Of a stretch of 23,325 nt of DNA, positions 8,586-16,529 are shown piece after piece. This DNA comes from a virus, in IMG/VR virus record IMGVR_UViG_3300006734_000042, positions 1 through 23,325 of that record. One strand, written 5' to 3'. A program made the position numbers and the translations under genes. Positions within the stretch are counted from its first letter, which is position 1, and each line of letters opens with the position of its first letter. The notes below the pieces were generated by a model. The model was not told where the DNA came from. It saw only the letters and a program-made list of their open reading frames with translations, and ran no database searches.

Positions 8586-8932
8586 TGGCTCATCCTTCTT
8601 TACATGCTAAATCCTCAGTGAGAAAATGGGGTGGCATTCCTGAAGATTACATTAAAATACATGAGTGGTTTGATGAAACTAAAAAGTGGATAGGTCATTC
8701 TATGCACAGATTATATCGTCATCACAGTGAAGGTATTTTTGAATGTGAAATAATCTTTGGTAAATCATTTATTAATTCAGACGGTAAGACCGTGTATACA
8801 AGATATGTTGGTGAACAACATGTCAAAGAAGATTGCAATAATTACATCCCATCTGCAAAGGAATGGATTGTTCATATGAACAGAAAGGAAAAACCAGATT
8901 GGATGAGAAAAACCTTAAAAATAGAGGACTAA
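8585..8932 (+). CDS. DUF6915-like protein
   Basis: 115 residues. The pattern MAHPSLHAKSSVRKWGG at 1-17, then a WFD-containing segment (EWFDETKKW), HRLYRHHSEGIF at 41-52 and GEQHVKED at 76-83 match a well-conserved family of unknown function found in phages and bacteria (DUF6915, recalled). Many conserved His, Trp and Glu residues hint at a metal-binding or enzymatic site, but none is established. It is linked by TAATG overlaps to the genes on both sides, so all three are probably translated together. Confidence 0.75.
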   Translation: MAHPSLHAKSSVRKWGGIPEDYIKIHEWFDETKKWIGHSMHRLYRHHSEGIFECEIIFGKSFINSDGKTVYTRYVGEQHVKEDCNNYIPSAKEWIVHMNRKEKPDWMRKTLKIED

Positions 8933-9309
8933 TGGATACAAAAGAAATATTAAAAATAGATTTAGAGGTATTTAATAATTTATCTAAGATGTTAAACTCT
9001 TCAAATACTGAAGATGTTGAGATGGCCTTGGAGACAATTAAAAACTTAAACCCTGAGGAAGAGATTATAAGGCTTATTCTTAAAAAAACTTCATATGGTG
9101 GCAGACGTCATCTTATAGAGATGCTTGGTCAGAGCATGTGGAATTATCAAGATCTCACAATGCAAGAGCTGTATAACAGCATATCAAAATTAAAAAGTGA
9201 TAATATAGAAAATATAAAACTCATTTATGAATCATTGGTTGTTGAGCATTTTCATGCTTTAACAGAAGAATATAAATTCATAGATGGTAAATTCAAAGTA
9301 AAATGGTAG
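8932..9309 (+). CDS. Helical protein sharing a motif with two cassette genes
   Basis: 125 residues starting MDTKEILKID. A longer frame upstream (from 8863) overlaps the DUF6915-like gene and has an unlike composition, so the TAATG-coupled start was chosen. It is almost fully helical. Residues about 11-40, ending SSNTEDVEMALETIKNLN, align with segments of the proteins at 11740 and 12753. The rest has HEAT-like helices. Family and function are unknown. It overlaps the VWA gene by 7 bases, which places it at the head of the MoxR-VWA cassette. Confidence 0.7.
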   Translation: MDTKEILKIDLEVFNNLSKMLNSSNTEDVEMALETIKNLNPEEEIIRLILKKTSYGGRRHLIEMLGQSMWNYQDLTMQELYNSISKLKSDNIENIKLIYESLVVEHFHALTEEYKFIDGKFKVKW

Positions 9310-10457
9310 CAAATTTAGTTTCAAAAGCAAGTAAAACCCTAATTTTTACAGAGCCCTTTTATGGGCTCTTTTTAGTTGGCCTTAATAAGGTTTATACAGA
9401 TAAGCTTCCTACTGCTGGTGTTAGTAAACACGGCATTGGTGTACAGCTTGCAATTAACCCTGAATTTTTTACAGGATTGAATGATAAACACAGGATTGGT
9501 TTATTAAAACATGAACTTCTTCATATATCATTTGGGCATTTGTTGGTCAGAGATCAGTATGCAGATAAGAAGTTATTTAATATAGCTGCGGATTTGGAGA
9601 TCAATCAATACATTGATCAAGATTATCTTCCTGATGGAGGTATAACAATGGATTCATTTCCAGAGTTAGATCTTCCTGCAAGAGCTGGTACTAAAACATA
9701 TTATGAGTTATTACAACAAGCTCGTCAAGATGGCTCATCTCCATCTCTTGATGAATTAATGGATCAAATGGATGGAAGTACTCCATATGATCATGCCACA
9801 TGGGAAGAGATTGAAGATTTATCTGAAGCAGAAAAGAAGTTAATCCAAAAGCAGGTTGAGCATCAGCTCAAAGAAAATGCTGAGATGACTGAGAAGAGAT
9901 GCGGTAATATTCCAGGTGAGTTGGCGGACTTAATTAAAAGACTCCGTCATGTAGAACCACCCAAGTTTGATTGGCGTGGTTACCTTAGAAGGTTTGTTGG
10001 TAATTCATCTATAGTTTATACAAAGAAGCTAAGAAGAAAGTATAATAAAAGGTATTCTGAAAATCCAGGACTAAAGATTAAATTCAAAAATCACATCTGC
10101 GTAGGTGTTGATACTTCAGGATCTGTAAGTCAAAAGGAACTTGAGGAATTTTGGTCTGAGTTAACACATATGCACAAGACTGGTCATCAGATTACAGTAG
10201 TGCAGTGTGATACAAGTATCAATTCAATTGAACCTTTTAATCCTAAGCGTGATTGGCAAATACATGGTAGAGGTGGTACATCATTTCAACCTGTCATAGA
10301 TCACTACAATGAACACGGGCGTTATACAGCTCTTATATATTTTACGGATGGTGAGGCATGGGCCCCAGAGAACTGTCCAAAGAATGCTTTGTGGGTACAT
10401 AGCAGTCATTGCAGAATAAACGAAGAATTACCCGGAAAAAAAATACAATTAAATTAA
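9303..10457 (+). CDS. Metallopeptidase-VWA protein (DUF2201 type)
   Basis: 384 residues. The N-terminal putative metallopeptidase domain has PFYGLFLVGLNK (18-29), NPEFF (52-56), HELLH at 70-74 and NIAADLEIN (93-101), the order of the DUF2201 N-terminal family. An acidic linker (about 150-200) leads to a VWA-like domain whose MIDAS is DTSGS at 270-274, with GGTSF at 324-328 and FTDGEA at 347-352, all needed for metal-dependent partner binding. VWA proteins of this kind pair with MoxR-type AAA+ ATPases, and the next gene is one. The pair probably remodels or matures a protein target, with the HELLH site possibly cutting it. An unusual intragenic hairpin lies at 9350-9373. Confidence 0.88.
   Translation: MVANLVSKASKTLIFTEPFYGLFLVGLNKVYTDKLPTAGVSKHGIGVQLAINPEFFTGLNDKHRIGLLKHELLHISFGHLLVRDQYADKKLFNIAADLEINQYIDQDYLPDGGITMDSFPELDLPARAGTKTYYELLQQARQDGSSPSLDELMDQMDGSTPYDHATWEEIEDLSEAEKKLIQKQVEHQLKENAEMTEKRCGNIPGELADLIKRLRHVEPPKFDWRGYLRRFVGNSSIVYTKKLRRKYNKRYSENPGLKIKFKNHICVGVDTSGSVSQKELEEFWSELTHMHKTGHQITVVQCDTSINSIEPFNPKRDWQIHGRGGTSFQPVIDHYNEHGRYTALIYFTDGEAWAPENCPKNALWVHSSHCRINEELPGKKIQLN
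9350..9373 (+). terminator. Terminator-like hairpin inside VWA gene
   Basis: AGAGCCC (9350-9356) pairs perfectly with GGGCTCT (9363-9369) around a 6-base loop and is followed by TTTT. It lies 47 bases after the VWA start codon and encodes TEPFYGLF. If ribosomes lag, it could terminate transcription early; if they follow closely, it would not form. Confidence 0.45.
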
Positions 10458-10463
10458 ACAATT

Positions 10464-11738
10464 ATGGCACAAGTAAATTTAAACATTGATGACTTAAGAG
10501 GCTTTATGGGCCACATTATAAACAATAATAGATTTCTACAGGGACAGGGAAAACTTCCTGTTGCTATAGAAGTTCTAGGTGAATCAGGTATTGGTAAAAC
10601 ATCCACAGTAAAACAAATTGCTGAGGAACATAACCTTGATTTTGTAAAACTAAACTTAGCTCAGATTGAGGAGCTAGGTGATCTCGTGGGTTTCCCAGTT
10701 AGAGAGTTCCAAATGTATAAAGAGAAAGTTGTATCTATTAATAACAACAAAGACGCTGTAGCTTACGGTGCAAAGACTGCCGCATCTAAAGATGTTGCCC
10801 AGCTAGCCAATAATGCTTCTGTTACAAAGAAGATTGGGCAGTGGGTAAGTGAGCTCGCAGTAAGTGACTATTTAAGCAATGGTTACAAGATGACAGGTAA
10901 GAACCGTATGTCATATGCTGCACCTGAGTGGATCTCAGACAAGAAGAAAGGTGGTATCCTACTTCTTGATGACTGGAACCGTGCAGACGTTAGATTTATT
11001 CAGGCCGTAATGGAACTGATTGATCGTCAGACGTACATCTCGTGGTCACTACCGCAAGACTGGCATATTGTGTTAACCGCAAATCCAGATAACGGAGACT
11101 ATATGGTTAACTCTATTGATGCTGCACAGAAAACACGTTATATTACTGCTAACTTGCAGTTTGATGTAAACGTATGGGCTCGTTGGGCGGAAGAAGAAGG
11201 AATTGATACACGTTGTATTAACTTCATGCTACTACACCCTGAGCTTGTGACTCAAGAGACAAATGCTCGTGCAATCACCACTTTCTTTAATTCTATCTCT
11301 AGCTTTGAAAGCTTTGAGGCTAACCTTTCATATATTCAAATGATTGGTGAAGGATCAGTAGGTGAAGAGTTTGCTTCTATGTTTACTGTATTTATTAATA
11401 ATAAGTTAGATAAACTAGTTACACCAAAAGATCTATTGACTCATGACAATGAGCAATATATTCTTGGTGAGTTAACCGGTTGTATTGGTAAAGATGATAA
11501 CTATCGTGCAGATATTGCATCTACCCTAGCAACCAGACTTGCAAACTTTGCAGTAGTATATTCTAAGGATAATACAATTAGTCAAAAGATTACTGATAGA
11601 TTGGAAACTCTTTGCACAAAAGAGTATTTCACTAATGATCTTAAGTACTTAGTTGTAAGAACTATTTTTAACGGGAACAAGCAGAAGTTTAATAAGCTTA
11701 TGATGAAGCCTGAAATAATTAAAATGACTGTAAAATAA
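10464..11738 (+). CDS. MoxR-type AAA+ ATPase
   Basis: 424 residues. Walker A GESGIGKT is at 39-46, Walker B ILLLDD at 165-170 with the following WNRA, and sensor 1 TANPDN at 205-210. An insertion of about 60 residues lies between Walker A and B (90-150), and an extended helical C-terminus follows. This order fits MoxR/CbbQ/RavA-type ATPases that work with VWA proteins to remodel other proteins. Six bases separate it from the VWA gene. Codon use differs from the early genes: 8 of 15 Arg codons are CGT, whereas AGA dominates there, which may reflect stronger expression. Confidence 0.88.
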   Translation: MAQVNLNIDDLRGFMGHIINNNRFLQGQGKLPVAIEVLGESGIGKTSTVKQIAEEHNLDFVKLNLAQIEELGDLVGFPVREFQMYKEKVVSINNNKDAVAYGAKTAASKDVAQLANNASVTKKIGQWVSELAVSDYLSNGYKMTGKNRMSYAAPEWISDKKKGGILLLDDWNRADVRFIQAVMELIDRQTYISWSLPQDWHIVLTANPDNGDYMVNSIDAAQKTRYITANLQFDVNVWARWAEEEGIDTRCINFMLLHPELVTQETNARAITTFFNSISSFESFEANLSYIQMIGEGSVGEEFASMFTVFINNKLDKLVTPKDLLTHDNEQYILGELTGCIGKDDNYRADIASTLATRLANFAVVYSKDNTISQKITDRLETLCTKEYFTNDLKYLVVRTIFNGNKQKFNKLMMKPEIIKMTVK

Positions 11739-11739
11739 T

Positions 11740-12756
11740 ATGGCAAATAAGAGTGTATATCAAGAATACAATCAAGATGCACTAGATCATTTTAAATTGG
11801 ATAAAGAGCCCCTTTATGGGGTTCTTTCATCTGATTTTGAAGTGTCTGATGTGCTTATAACACAAGATGAAACTAGATATGAGAACATTAAAAATATGCT
11901 TTCTATACAGAATATAAAACCAACAGCTCTTAATAACTATAAGAGGGCTTTTATACTACCAAGATCTCCAATAACACAGGATAGATTAAAAGCTGTAGCT
12001 AAAGAAAAAGGTTTAACAATTACTAATGATTATGAAAAAGCAGATGTAATTATTACACATGATGAATTTTTTCAAAGATTTGAACATGGAGAAAAAATTC
12101 AATCTACTGTAATGATGTACAGGCTTTGGAATTATGAAGCATTTACCGGAGGTCATCATATGATAGATAATCATGATAAAGCTGTAATTTATGATGAGAA
12201 ACTTGAAGGAAGAATAAGTTCATATAACTGTTCTGGACAAACAACTCTCATTGATGAGTGGGGTATTTCAGCCTTAGCTTTAAACATAGCATATCTTATA
12301 GATATAGGTGAATTAAAAGTAATCGGTGGTGAAACATTGTTACATGCTTCTGCAAATCTAATAGATCTAACTGAAGACCTTCTTAATGAAATAACGCAGT
12401 GGGTAAATTCATATGATGAAGAGAACATAGCTGTAGCAGCTAAGATTCTTCCTACAATAAACTATACAAAGAAACCACATTTAATGTGGCAATTGGCTCA
12501 AAATATATATTCTTATATACATAAGTTTAGTAGAGATAAAGATGTACAGTTTTGGGAGGAACAATCAGATCTAAGTAAATTATATCATAATTCAGCTGAA
12601 GATATGATTCTACAGTTGGAAGTAGAAAATAGATTAGACACTGAATCATTTAAATATTTAGAGAAAATAGTTAGAAAAGATATTTCAATTCATAACCGCA
12701 ATCTTTATACGTTTAAAGTGAGTGTAAAACCAGAATATAAAAAGTACTTAAAATGA
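11740..12756 (+). CDS. KADxIIT-motif protein, paralogue A
   Basis: 338 residues, not recognised. EPLYGVL (23-29) sits over a strong hairpin. ILPRSP (72-77) and KADVIIT (100-106) form a small alpha/beta unit resembling a BRCT or nucleotide-binding lobe. Residues about 210-241, ending SYDEENIAVAAKILPTIN, align with the 8932 and 12753 proteins. The C-terminus is helical. The layout (KADxIIT unit, middle domain, shared helical motif, variable end) matches the next gene, so the two are paralogues. The start is one base after the MoxR stop, and the stop overlaps the next gene by ATGA, so it belongs to the cassette. Confidence 0.75.
   Translation: MANKSVYQEYNQDALDHFKLDKEPLYGVLSSDFEVSDVLITQDETRYENIKNMLSIQNIKPTALNNYKRAFILPRSPITQDRLKAVAKEKGLTITNDYEKADVIITHDEFFQRFEHGEKIQSTVMMYRLWNYEAFTGGHHMIDNHDKAVIYDEKLEGRISSYNCSGQTTLIDEWGISALALNIAYLIDIGELKVIGGETLLHASANLIDLTEDLLNEITQWVNSYDEENIAVAAKILPTINYTKKPHLMWQLAQNIYSYIHKFSRDKDVQFWEEQSDLSKLYHNSAEDMILQLEVENRLDTESFKYLEKIVRKDISIHNRNLYTFKVSVKPEYKKYLK
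11803..11827 (+). terminator. Hairpin inside paralogue A gene
   Basis: AAAGAGCCCC (11803-11812) pairs with GGGGTTCTTT (11818-11827), 10 bp with one G-T and a 5-base loop. It encodes KEPLYGVL, 64 bases after the start, in the same frame as the EPFYGLF hairpin of the VWA gene. The T-run is short and broken, so it is more likely an RNA structure than an efficient terminator. Confidence 0.35.
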
Positions 12757-13904
12757 AAATAGAAAAATTATATACATTAAGCATTTACCCAACTGATTCA
12801 TCGTGGGTAAAATCTGTTTTAGTTGATGAAGATGCCATTACCTTTGTAAATAAACATAAAAATTATCATGTAGGATCTAATGAAGACTACTCATATATTG
12901 GGGGTCTAAGTTCTATTTCTAACGGTAGAAGATCTAATCCAGCATTTAGTATACCTAAGTTTGATAAAAACAATTTACAAGATACAAGTTTCTATAGAAC
13001 TCCAAAATTAGCATTGCCGCAAGTTAAATTGCAACTTTTAAAAGATAAGTATAATATAAAAGTTGTAAGAGATATGGATAAAGCAGATTATATTATTACA
13101 TCAGATAAATATTTTGAAAGTTTAACTGAATATAACTGGCATAGCTTTTACTCAGGATCAGATATAAAAGAAGTATATCTACCTAAAATAAAAGCTTATG
13201 TTTCTGAAACTATATATGATAAAATCTGTCACTTTGTTGATCATGTTATAAATAAAGATGGTTTTATTTTTATTGATAATAGAATACCTTATGGCTTTAA
13301 TCATACTGTTAGAGATGCTTTTAGTGATAGACATGATAAACTTAGAGATAAAGGTCATGAATTTTGGTTAGTTACACACTCTGAAAATTTAACTTATTTA
13401 ATAAATAACCCTGATAAGTTAGTTAAAGATACTGATCTTATAAACTATTGTAATGAAGATTCGGTTGTTCTTACGCCAGAAGAATGCAAATCTATATCTC
13501 AGATGATTAAATCTGGTGATAGAGATAGTATAGCTTTAGCTTTAGAAATGATGGCTAATTGCAATATTGAAAAATCATTTGATAAATTGGCTTTAATATT
13601 TGCATTCTATAAAGAGTTACTTGGTAATGCAAGAAACTGGAATAGTGTAAATGTAAAATCATTAAGGAAACAATTAGTAGATATTCCTTATGTTGAGGGT
13701 AATAATGGATATGGTTTTAATATGTTAGTTAGAGCTTTGCATGTAAAAGGTTGTTTAACTCCTTTTGCTGTAGGTGCAATATCTAATAAAATGTGCAAGA
13801 CTATATTGAGTCATGTAGGCCTTACAAACTCTGAGTCTGTATTTGATATAAGACCTAAAGATTTAAAACTGAAGTCTGAATATACTGAAGACTTACCGTT
13901 TTAG
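12753..13904 (+). CDS. KADxIIT-motif protein, paralogue B
   Basis: 383 residues, not recognised. The N-terminus is beta-rich. ALPQVKLQLLKDKY (87-100) leads to KADYIIT at 110-116 and then SDKYFESL, matching paralogue A. Residues about 240-271, ending SGDRDSIALALEMMANCN, carry the shared helical motif; a C-terminal region (275-383) has no counterpart in A. Proteins with a 'KADy.It.kY' segment recur in Bacteroidetes phages as hypotheticals (recalled). It starts in an ATGA overlap with paralogue A and is the last gene before a strong terminator, so it closes the cassette. Confidence 0.75.
   Translation: MKIEKLYTLSIYPTDSSWVKSVLVDEDAITFVNKHKNYHVGSNEDYSYIGGLSSISNGRRSNPAFSIPKFDKNNLQDTSFYRTPKLALPQVKLQLLKDKYNIKVVRDMDKADYIITSDKYFESLTEYNWHSFYSGSDIKEVYLPKIKAYVSETIYDKICHFVDHVINKDGFIFIDNRIPYGFNHTVRDAFSDRHDKLRDKGHEFWLVTHSENLTYLINNPDKLVKDTDLINYCNEDSVVLTPEECKSISQMIKSGDRDSIALALEMMANCNIEKSFDKLALIFAFYKELLGNARNWNSVNVKSLRKQLVDIPYVEGNNGYGFNMLVRALHVKGCLTPFAVGAISNKMCKTILSHVGLTNSESVFDIRPKDLKLKSEYTEDLPF
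12784..12811 (+). other. Hairpin inside paralogue B gene
   Basis: TTTACCCA (12784-12791) pairs perfectly with TGGGTAAA (12804-12811) around a 12-base loop, 31 bases after the start codon. TCTGTTTT follows a few bases on. It is weaker than the two hairpins in neighbouring genes but in the same relative place. Confidence 0.3.
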
Positions 13905-13963
13905 GGGTAGCCATAATTGATTAGAAATGGTGTGCAGAACGTCTGCACACCACCCCTTTTTTT
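13905..13963 (+). terminator. Strong terminator closing the MoxR-VWA cassette
   Basis: TGGTGTGCAGA (13928-13938) pairs perfectly with TCTGCACACCA (13942-13952), 11 bp with a 3-base loop. GGGGT just after the gene stop can also pair with ACCCC at 13952-13956. A T7 run (13957-13963) follows. Confidence 0.9.
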
Positions 13964-15947: not shown

Positions 15948-16529
15948 ATGACTCAGGCTTATATGCAGTATTTTCAAAAATCAAAGATTTTTTTGTATCC
16001 TTTATTAGACATAAGGAAAGGTGAAGATTACGTCCCAGTAGAAACATATATCTGCTGGGATGGTCTTTATCAGCCACATGACTATAGGTATATCTGTATT
16101 TATCATACAAATGCAAACTTAAAGTTCAGAAATTTTGAGAGAAGACATTTGGATTCACATCCATTGTTAGATCATAAAGAAAGAATGAAGGACAAGCAAA
16201 TTTACATTTTTGACTATTCTAAATATGAGCATGACTTTGATATGTTCGTAAAAGGACATTACTCTAAATTTTCAGTTAAAACAAAACATAAGATATTAAA
16301 ATACTTTGGTAAGGTTGGTAGAATAAGTAAGTATATACAATCTTACCTGGATCCAAGTGAACATCATGAAACATATGCAGAAGCATTAGATGTAAGCTTA
16401 GATATTATAAAGGAAACACATGAACTATGCACACCTCCTGATCTAGAAAAAGAAACACTATTTGAAAAAATTCCAGATGAGTTTGCTTTATTACACAATA
16501 ATTCTATATCTTTAGAAAAAAATAATTAA
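15948..16529 (+). CDS. Hypothetical protein
   Basis: 193 residues, not recognised. The first part (FLYPLLDI, YICWDG, YICIYHTNANLKFRNFE) looks beta-rich with aromatic strands; IFDYSKYEHDFDMF and a GHYSKFSVKTKHKI segment follow, then a helical C-terminus. No catalytic motif is visible. It starts one base after the exonuclease stop and overlaps the next start by one base (TAATG), so it belongs to that transcript. Confidence 0.72.
   Translation: MTQAYMQYFQKSKIFLYPLLDIRKGEDYVPVETYICWDGLYQPHDYRYICIYHTNANLKFRNFERRHLDSHPLLDHKERMKDKQIYIFDYSKYEHDFDMFVKGHYSKFSVKTKHKILKYFGKVGRISKYIQSYLDPSEHHETYAEALDVSLDIIKETHELCTPPDLEKETLFEKIPDEFALLHNNSISLEKNN

Follow-up and report, generated by a model that had tools for sequence, protein, structure and literature searches.

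A stretch of viral DNA 23,325 nucleotides long (positions 1 to 23,325 of IMG/VR virus record IMGVR_UViG_3300006734_000042; hereafter ‘the window’) carries five abutting genes, P1, VWA, MoxR, P4 and P5, that are rigidly linked across relatives. We tentatively propose, with rather less than even confidence, that the block encodes one phage protein-remodelling machine, in which a MoxR motor and a zincin-VWA co-chaperone would act on clients brought to them by a partner family comprising P1, P4 and P5. Within the codons of P4, moreover, lies an mRNA hairpin whose paired positions covary among relatives. The features concerned are as follows.

8932–9309, plus strand: P1, a helical protein of 125 amino acids (aa), carrying the domain common to P4 and P5
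9303–10457, plus strand: VWA, a zincin-like metallopeptidase domain fused to a VWA domain (DUF2201_N + DUF2201, phrog_1314)
9350–9374, plus strand: terminator-like hairpin within the VWA coding sequence, followed by five T residues
10464–11738, plus strand: MoxR-type AAA+ ATPase (phrog_1297)
11740–12756, plus strand: P4, with a predicted BRCT-like domain (residues 62–207), a predicted ARM/HEAT-like domain (208–284) and a conserved C-terminus
11794–11837, plus strand: mRNA hairpin within P4 codons 19–33, 19 bp with one bulge, covarying among relatives
12753–13904, plus strand: P5, a faster-evolving P4 paralogue, with a predicted BRCT-like domain (72–237) and helical from residue 238
13928–13952, plus strand: intrinsic terminator closing the block, 11 pairs with tail CCCCTTTTTT

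Five genes inherited as a unit

An initial annotation of this DNA, made from the sequence without database searches, had described five head-to-tail genes at 8932–13904 ending in a strong terminator. All five open reading frames (ORFs) are indeed present and run in the same direction, with successive junctions of -7, +6, +1 and -4 bases, and the terminator stands where the block closes. The ORF listed for P1 begins at 8863; the majority of homologues begin near 8932. In every pair of relatives compared, the ratio of non-synonymous to synonymous substitution (dN/dS) was <1 for all five, which are therefore genes under selection.

Relatives were gathered from five viral scans, using P5 (14 loci), VWA (best 80 of 211), P4 (7), a P5 alignment (best 80 of 255) and a P4 alignment (best 80 of 357), to give 251 distinct loci, some contigs contributing several. 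All five genes stood in this order in 219/251; in 29 the absent members fall beyond the end of the locus, and in three, from two contigs, only a recognisable P1 was absent. The proposal that the P4, P5 and P1 genes stay with the MoxR-VWA pair therefore withstood this test among best-scoring matches, a scope beyond which remote, unlinked homologues may exist. When each distinct VWA DNA (or, failing that, the first available gene) was counted once, the plain five-gene pattern was found in 112/139, the remaining 27 being truncated, split or duplicated forms or forms without P1. Median gaps in distinct loci were -7, 8, 1 and -4 bases, and MoxR came after VWA in every locus pattern containing VWA. 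The same five genes were also recovered in three matches from assembled bacterial genomes, which are probably binned phage contigs.

Profile searches of 16 phage records, some of them partial, detected one P5 gene in each (one of these cut by the record ends), with an additional weak match on the P1 gene of one record; a P1 profile matched only P1, P4 and P5 in the same records, save for one weak match. This last lies outside the cassette (G011 25487–25624, an 84-aa frame, E 8.5e-5). Variant arrangements included tandem copies of P1 (L029 7090–8011) and of P5 (L175 6956–9128), and in five loci (L061, L065, L074, L081 and L179) an additional open frame of ~120–130 aa (GRYYTGDIEGKF...) lay between VWA and MoxR.

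A motor pair with invariant catalytic motifs

The VWA protein, annotated at the outset as combining HELLH with a metal ion-dependent adhesion site (MIDAS), contains both DUF2201 halves: Pfam DUF2201_N (E 8.3e-19) and DUF2201 (E 2.1e-17) both scored above curated cut-offs, as part of a wider match to phrog_1314 (E 4.2e-66), the DUF2201 match stopping at residue 370 of 384. The HExxH motif and the MIDAS residues (DxSxS, T, D) were invariant in 37/37 aligned VWA proteins. A sequence search of solved structures with this protein gave no match. The PHROG label of phrog_1314, ‘HNH endonuclease’, which is also borne by many VWA-matching phage records, looks wrong. Its neighbour is likewise a MoxR AAA+ ATPase, as had been called, matching phrog_1297 (E 2.7e-34) and, as best solved structure, midasin (E 3.7e-7), and Walker A (GESGIGKT, G39–T46) and Walker B (D169–D170) were invariant in 36/36 proteins.

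MoxR is interrupted by insertions of ~1 kb within its Walker B region, at three sites close together (L017, L175, L019/L096, L176 and L177), and in L223 VWA is split inside the HELLH codons. Of seven insert-bearing loci scanned, only L017 and L175 gave a group I intron match in Rfam, and the insert ORFs resemble GIY-YIG or LAGLIDADG endonucleases. Such insertion elements favour conserved sites in needed genes. An HNH ORF likewise stands right behind Walker B of the MoxR of Escherichia phage Pollock; a literature search on group I introns, MoxR and phages found no related paper.

The likeness to known MoxR-VWA pairs drawn in the initial annotation is right, the window encoding a DUF2201_N + DUF2201 protein beside a MoxR-class ATPase, as do phage N4 (gp24/gp25), group 2.2 jumbo phages and AR9 (g028/g029). 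The VWA protein matched 439/50,697 phage records, all at <60% identity and including N4-like, jumbo and AR9-type phages; the window MoxR matched just two by tblastn. VWA precedes MoxR here and in Alteromonas phage AD45-P1, whereas the order is reversed in Piffle, AR9 and a Moorella phage. Among N4-like core proteins, gp24 is recognised by 2/3 methods and gp25 by 1/3 (PMC7650795; this and all other papers cited here are cited from part of their text). NorQ-NorD, RavA-ViaA and other cellular pairs also couple an AAA+ motor to a VWA co-chaperone with intact MIDAS, but the phage block differs in the N-terminal zincin domain of its VWA protein and in its three extra, mutually homologous partners. 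No gene for a respiratory or metal-cofactor client was recognised among ten nearby genes scanned.

A proposed partner family

P1, P4 and P5, which the initial annotation had grouped as motif-sharing proteins, look like homologues: HHalign related P1 to P5 (E 3.7e-6, probability 87%), P1 to P4 (E 1.9e-4, 48%) and P4 to P5 (E 3.2e-5, 73%, over 123 columns of the C-terminal part), so that on sequence comparison the three appear to have one helical domain in common. The KADxIIT motif itself stood only in part, being present as KADVIIT in P4 and KADYIIT in P5 while just ‘AD’ is conserved among relatives (47/47 for P4, 39/41 for P5). P1 has no Pfam family above cut-off, and its D28 was invariant in 50 aligned P1 proteins. 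Neither P4 nor P5 of the window matched a Pfam or PHROG family above cut-off, and their relatives gave scattered weak family matches only (best E 0.00078, in 1/41 P5, and 0.0015, in 1/47 P4).

AlphaFold2 models of P4 (mean predicted local distance difference test score, pLDDT, 89.6; predicted template modelling score, pTM, 0.77) and P5 (pLDDT 80.8, with residues 27–61 <50; pTM 0.66) point, tentatively, to BRCT-like plus ARM/HEAT-like domains. Residues 62–207 of the P4 model align to the BRCT domain of MCPH1 (VIA, Z 7.1 over 69 residues) and residues 72–237 of the P5 model to that of PARP1 (VIA, Z 7.0 over 80 residues), and BRCT chains top both structure lists, filling 22/50 rows for P4 and 24/50 for P5. 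ARM/HEAT proteins align to the next ~75 residues (P4 Z 6.7, beta-catenin; P5 Z 5.7, ZYG11B). By comparison with BRCT proteins (MCPH1, XRCC1, PARP1), identity is 4–21% over the BRCT rows, and the aligned range is interrupted by an insertion. A weak Pfam BRCT signal (E ≤ 1, best 0.0083) came from 5/47 P4 members, and this family was not among the 25 of 30 families listed for P5 relatives. In the BFVD viral structure library P4 and P5 matched an identical set of just four proteins at E ≤ 0.001 (A0A8S5TL70, A0A8S5TKB2, A0A8S5QMV2 and A0A6J5LXR8), two of them from one phage and one labelled crAss-like. Public phage records yielded no match for the cassette DNA or for P5, and three weak matches (E 3) for P4.

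Lineage and genomic setting

We take the block to come from a crAss-like phage lineage with genomes of ~115 kb, probably marine to judge by the sample numbers. IMG/VR contig 3300025057_000003 (115,584 bases) encodes P5, VWA and P4 proteins 100% identical to those of the window, and in the relative G004 (117,829 bases) the genes form two opposed blocks and include giant ORFs of 4988, 2057 and 1698 aa, as in crAss-like phages. In G004 the cassette occupies one strand block, and terminase and major head protein are encoded on the opposite strand, in keeping with the earlier placement of the cassette in a replication block apart from structural genes; a PDDEXK/exonuclease-VIII-like gene and a DNA polymerase are among the neighbours of the cassette. 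The G004 terminase, a gene of this relative and not of the window’s own record, matched 134 phage records (best identity 26% among 30 listed), the top listed being gut crAss-like, Azobacteroides and Flavobacterium phages at 25–26% identity. Five such records were inspected: four carry a Crassvirales classification, and the fifth, FPSV-S29, is assigned to Fipvunavirus.

No VWA or MoxR match was found in seven crAss-like or related records (cr50_1, cr1_1, ProJPt-Bp1, FPSV-S29, phi14:2, cr52_1 and crAss001), the same searches having recovered VWA in 5/5 and MoxR in 4/5 phages with known pairs; the block is thus not general in the crAss-like group. An AAA ATPase, ATP_43b, is listed by Yutin and colleagues as conserved in the crAss-like replication block (PMC7886860). 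The idea, suggested by N4 and AR9, that the MoxR-VWA pair tracks phages with their own RNA polymerase was rejected: crAss-like phages possess such a polymerase (PMC7886860), yet the seven records are without the pair.

What the block may do

If the block is one remodelling machine, MoxR would be its AAA+ motor and the zincin-VWA protein its co-chaperone, whose MIDAS metal would grip an acidic site on the target and whose zincin domain may also cut that target. P1, P4 and P5 would be a family of partners specific to this pair, all based on one helical ARM/HEAT-like domain, to which P4 and P5 would add a BRCT-like domain; P4 and P5, perhaps paired, and with P1 as a bare docking unit, would bring clients to the motor. 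These clients may be host or replication proteins; probably they would be complexes that replicate, repair or recombine phage DNA. In NorQD, target binding is attributed to the MIDAS of the VWA protein, with the AAA+ ring acting on that target (PMC9976466), and it is by analogy with NorQD that the phage pair may grip a client and P4 and P5 may choose it, the role of client adaptor being the most likely for both. Of this scheme, the genes, their intact catalytic motifs, the homology of the partners and the linkage are demonstrated here, the two folds are predictions, and the adaptor role, the client and any proteolysis are inferred.

Rates of evolution separate the motor pair from its partners. 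Mean column identity was 84% for MoxR (n=36) and 82% for VWA (n=37), against 57% for P4, 34% for P5 and 24% for P1, and dN/dS, measured in the same phage pairs throughout, ranked the genes alike except for P1 (MoxR 0.04–0.12, VWA 0.09–0.13, P1 0.11–0.24, P4 0.16–0.27, P5 0.36–0.68). A nearly frozen motor pair with diverging partners is expected if the partners track changing clients.

Several observations weigh against this proposal. Part of the loci were picked by VWA similarity, which inflates VWA conservation, and P1 and P5 may have diverged so far because constraint on them is relaxed. The BRCT and ARM/HEAT calls rest on Z ≤ 7.1, values common for unrelated folds according to the aligner’s notes; sequence profile searches of the PDB returned no BRCT protein for either P4 or P5 (one chance match, E 2.1, for P4 and none for P5), and Foldseek found no match for P5 in the PDB with E ≤ 0.001. 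Ten neighbourhoods around VWA genes of other phages, seven of them with a MoxR match at E <1e-3 (none was seen adjoining VWA in L105), yielded no relative of P1, P4 or P5 either (best E 0.17), so that such motors do without these partners elsewhere. The top match of both the P1 and the P5 profile in these neighbourhoods, not a significant one, was g030 of Bacillus phage AR9. In favour of the proposal, the MoxR-VWA pair of AR9 is followed by two ORFs of its own, g030 and g031 (L107 5741–7585), with a C-terminal region in common (46% identity over 84 residues); AR9 perhaps follows the same plan with different parts.

The strongest competitor, unlikely though we judge it, makes P1, P4 and P5 the clients themselves, MoxR-VWA assembling, activating or processing a P1-P4-P5 complex that is itself the active agent, for instance on DNA. 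The genes for NorQD and for its client cNOR lie in one operon (PMC9976466), P1, P4 and P5 are inherited together with the motor pair, and a BRCT-like domain would fit a protein of repair or replication; a PDDEXK/exonuclease-VIII-like gene and a DNA polymerase lie nearby. Clients would, however, be expected to evolve in step with their chaperone, and sequence divergence in P1 and P5 far exceeds that of the motor; the failure of window P4 and P5 to match any family above cut-off, with the scattered weak matches of their relatives, also tells against it. Somewhat less probable is a virion assembly chaperone with peptidase activity, as has been proposed, not shown, for the MoxR and metallopeptidase-vWA pair of group 2.2 jumbo phages in a survey that suggested virion assembly with peptidolytic processing (PMC7824862). 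The VWA protein has the same domain architecture and the same MoxR partner as in those phages, Klebsiella phage K64-1 and cyanophage S-TIM54 have genes with virion structural annotations close to the pair, and roseophage RPP1 encodes four virion proteins in the vicinity of its gp24/gp25 homologues, in a second structural module (PMC4193335). Against this, the block is on the strand of the replication genes, opposite the head and terminase genes in G004; the N4 gp24/gp25 transcripts are middle rather than late (PMC4193335); and the seven crAss-like or related records without the pair imply that crAss-like virions can be built without it.

Least probable of the readings compared, and in our view improbable, is a host-takeover or counter-defence machine acting on host proteins, like a MoxR-vWA conflict system reversed. 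Fast-evolving partners around a frozen motor would fit it, and MoxR-vWA-VMAP ternary conflict systems exist in bacteria (PMC7159879), similarly composed of MoxR, vWA and a further, rapidly evolving component. The resemblance goes only so far: the order is VMAP-MoxR-vWA there (PMC7159879) and P1-VWA-MoxR-P4-P5 here, the third component differs, there is no effector domain C-terminal to vWA in the window protein, given where its DUF2201 match ends, and the present block is phage-borne. PADLOC gave just two weak matches, both to the MoxR P-loop region, and effector parts are not swapped, the same five families recurring.

An mRNA hairpin within the P4 codons

Two terminator-like hairpins, neither of them noted in the initial annotation, lie inside coding sequence, one in P4 and one in VWA. 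The best stem of P4 starts at ORF nucleotides 50–79 in 104/108 distinct homologues, even though the stem sequences are very different. Compared with synonymous resampling, the hairpin had z 3.4–3.7, the VWA start 1.5–2.0 and no other window in the five genes >1.3; in a survey of the 24 block genes with enough homologues to test (five more had too few), P4 had z 4.05 and all others ≤1.8. Stems of at least 8 bp were found in 28/38 P4 sequence clusters, compared with 7.3% when arms were swapped between clusters. This count keeps the ten clusters with <8 pairs, including L118, L175 and L180 (≤4), and also L168, which scores 0 from anchoring though another scan gives it 18 pairs. An earlier fixed-register test, in which stems of at least 7 pairs occurred in 54/109, is superseded by these free-register tests.

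The covariation score was 0.437, compared with 0.206 in shuffled alignments, and 0/500 shuffles scored as high, with the proviso that the shuffles ignore relatedness and that the structure was derived from the same sequences. In the hairpin alignment 79% of cells pair, as opposed to 64% when shuffled and at most 58% when slid, and 11/12 pairs change on both sides somewhere; RNAalifold recovered 8 pairs from the same alignment, with compensatory change in 7 of them; the consensus energy was weak (-3 kcal/mol). The window copy folds at z -5.9; four homologues also folded were chosen for their strong stems. Wobble pairs comprised 64 G.U and 9 A.C, and this excess of G.U indicates that the pairing belongs to the mRNA strand.

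Other causes of the P4 stem were considered and set aside. A DNA palindrome is contradicted by the same wobble counts and by mean stems, with G.U allowed, of 9.7 on the mRNA strand and 4.6 on the other. The window copy is terminator-like, yet a T-run was found in 0/34 homologous segments with the [ED]PxYG motif, a count that leaves out 161 P4 entries without it, and a transcription terminator was accordingly rejected. Ribosomal frameshifting from MoxR to P4 was also discarded: the hairpin begins ~55 bases past the junction, too far by general knowledge. Among the matches listed in a literature search on intragenic hairpins, none was plainly about a P4-type element, from which absence in print is not claimed.

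The hairpin in VWA, at about codons 16–24, has the form GAGCCC-loop-GGGCTC, often before a T-run, and folds as RNA at z -4.7. A stem of at least 7 pairs was present in 51/91 distinct homologous VWA segments, 25 of them with a T-run, and the hairpin reached z 2.0 against synonymous resampling. Covariation was looked for and not found, 11/25 clusters having at least 7 pairs as compared with 36% with swapped arms; this hairpin is kept by codon choice, with synonymous conservation only. Elsewhere in the window, a gene at 15948–16529 has a strong hairpin at 16031–16062, ~84 nt into the gene, and 12/40 homologues have a strong hairpin there.

With low confidence, we suggest that the P4 and VWA hairpins control expression from within codons: genes that abut would leave no room between them for signals governing subunit ratio or mRNA processing.

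Implications

The MoxR/zincin-VWA pair is already known in phages, and it is the three co-inherited partners that appear to be the new part; no description of this five-gene block was found in the open literature, the field of a search that mostly excluded subscription journals. A bolder interpretation, doubtful in its entirety and less probable than a remodelling machine as such, would see here a new kind of AAA+ machine, a MoxR/protease-VWA motor with built-in paralogous BRCT-ARM adaptors, in which the P4 mRNA hairpin is so strongly selected that protein yields to pairing; an intercistronic control element (acting through processing, pausing or binding by one of the machine’s own proteins) would have been displaced into the codons of abutting genes, where it would set the ratio of motor to adaptor.

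The P4 hairpin, an RNA element kept at the cost of amino acid sequence across divergent relatives, is a separate and testable finding. For the machine itself, MoxR/zincin-VWA pairs occur in hundreds of phage records, their phage targets not being stated in the literature examined, and in loci with flanking sequence available the partners were not seen without the motor, so that partner and client are directly searchable by pull-down.

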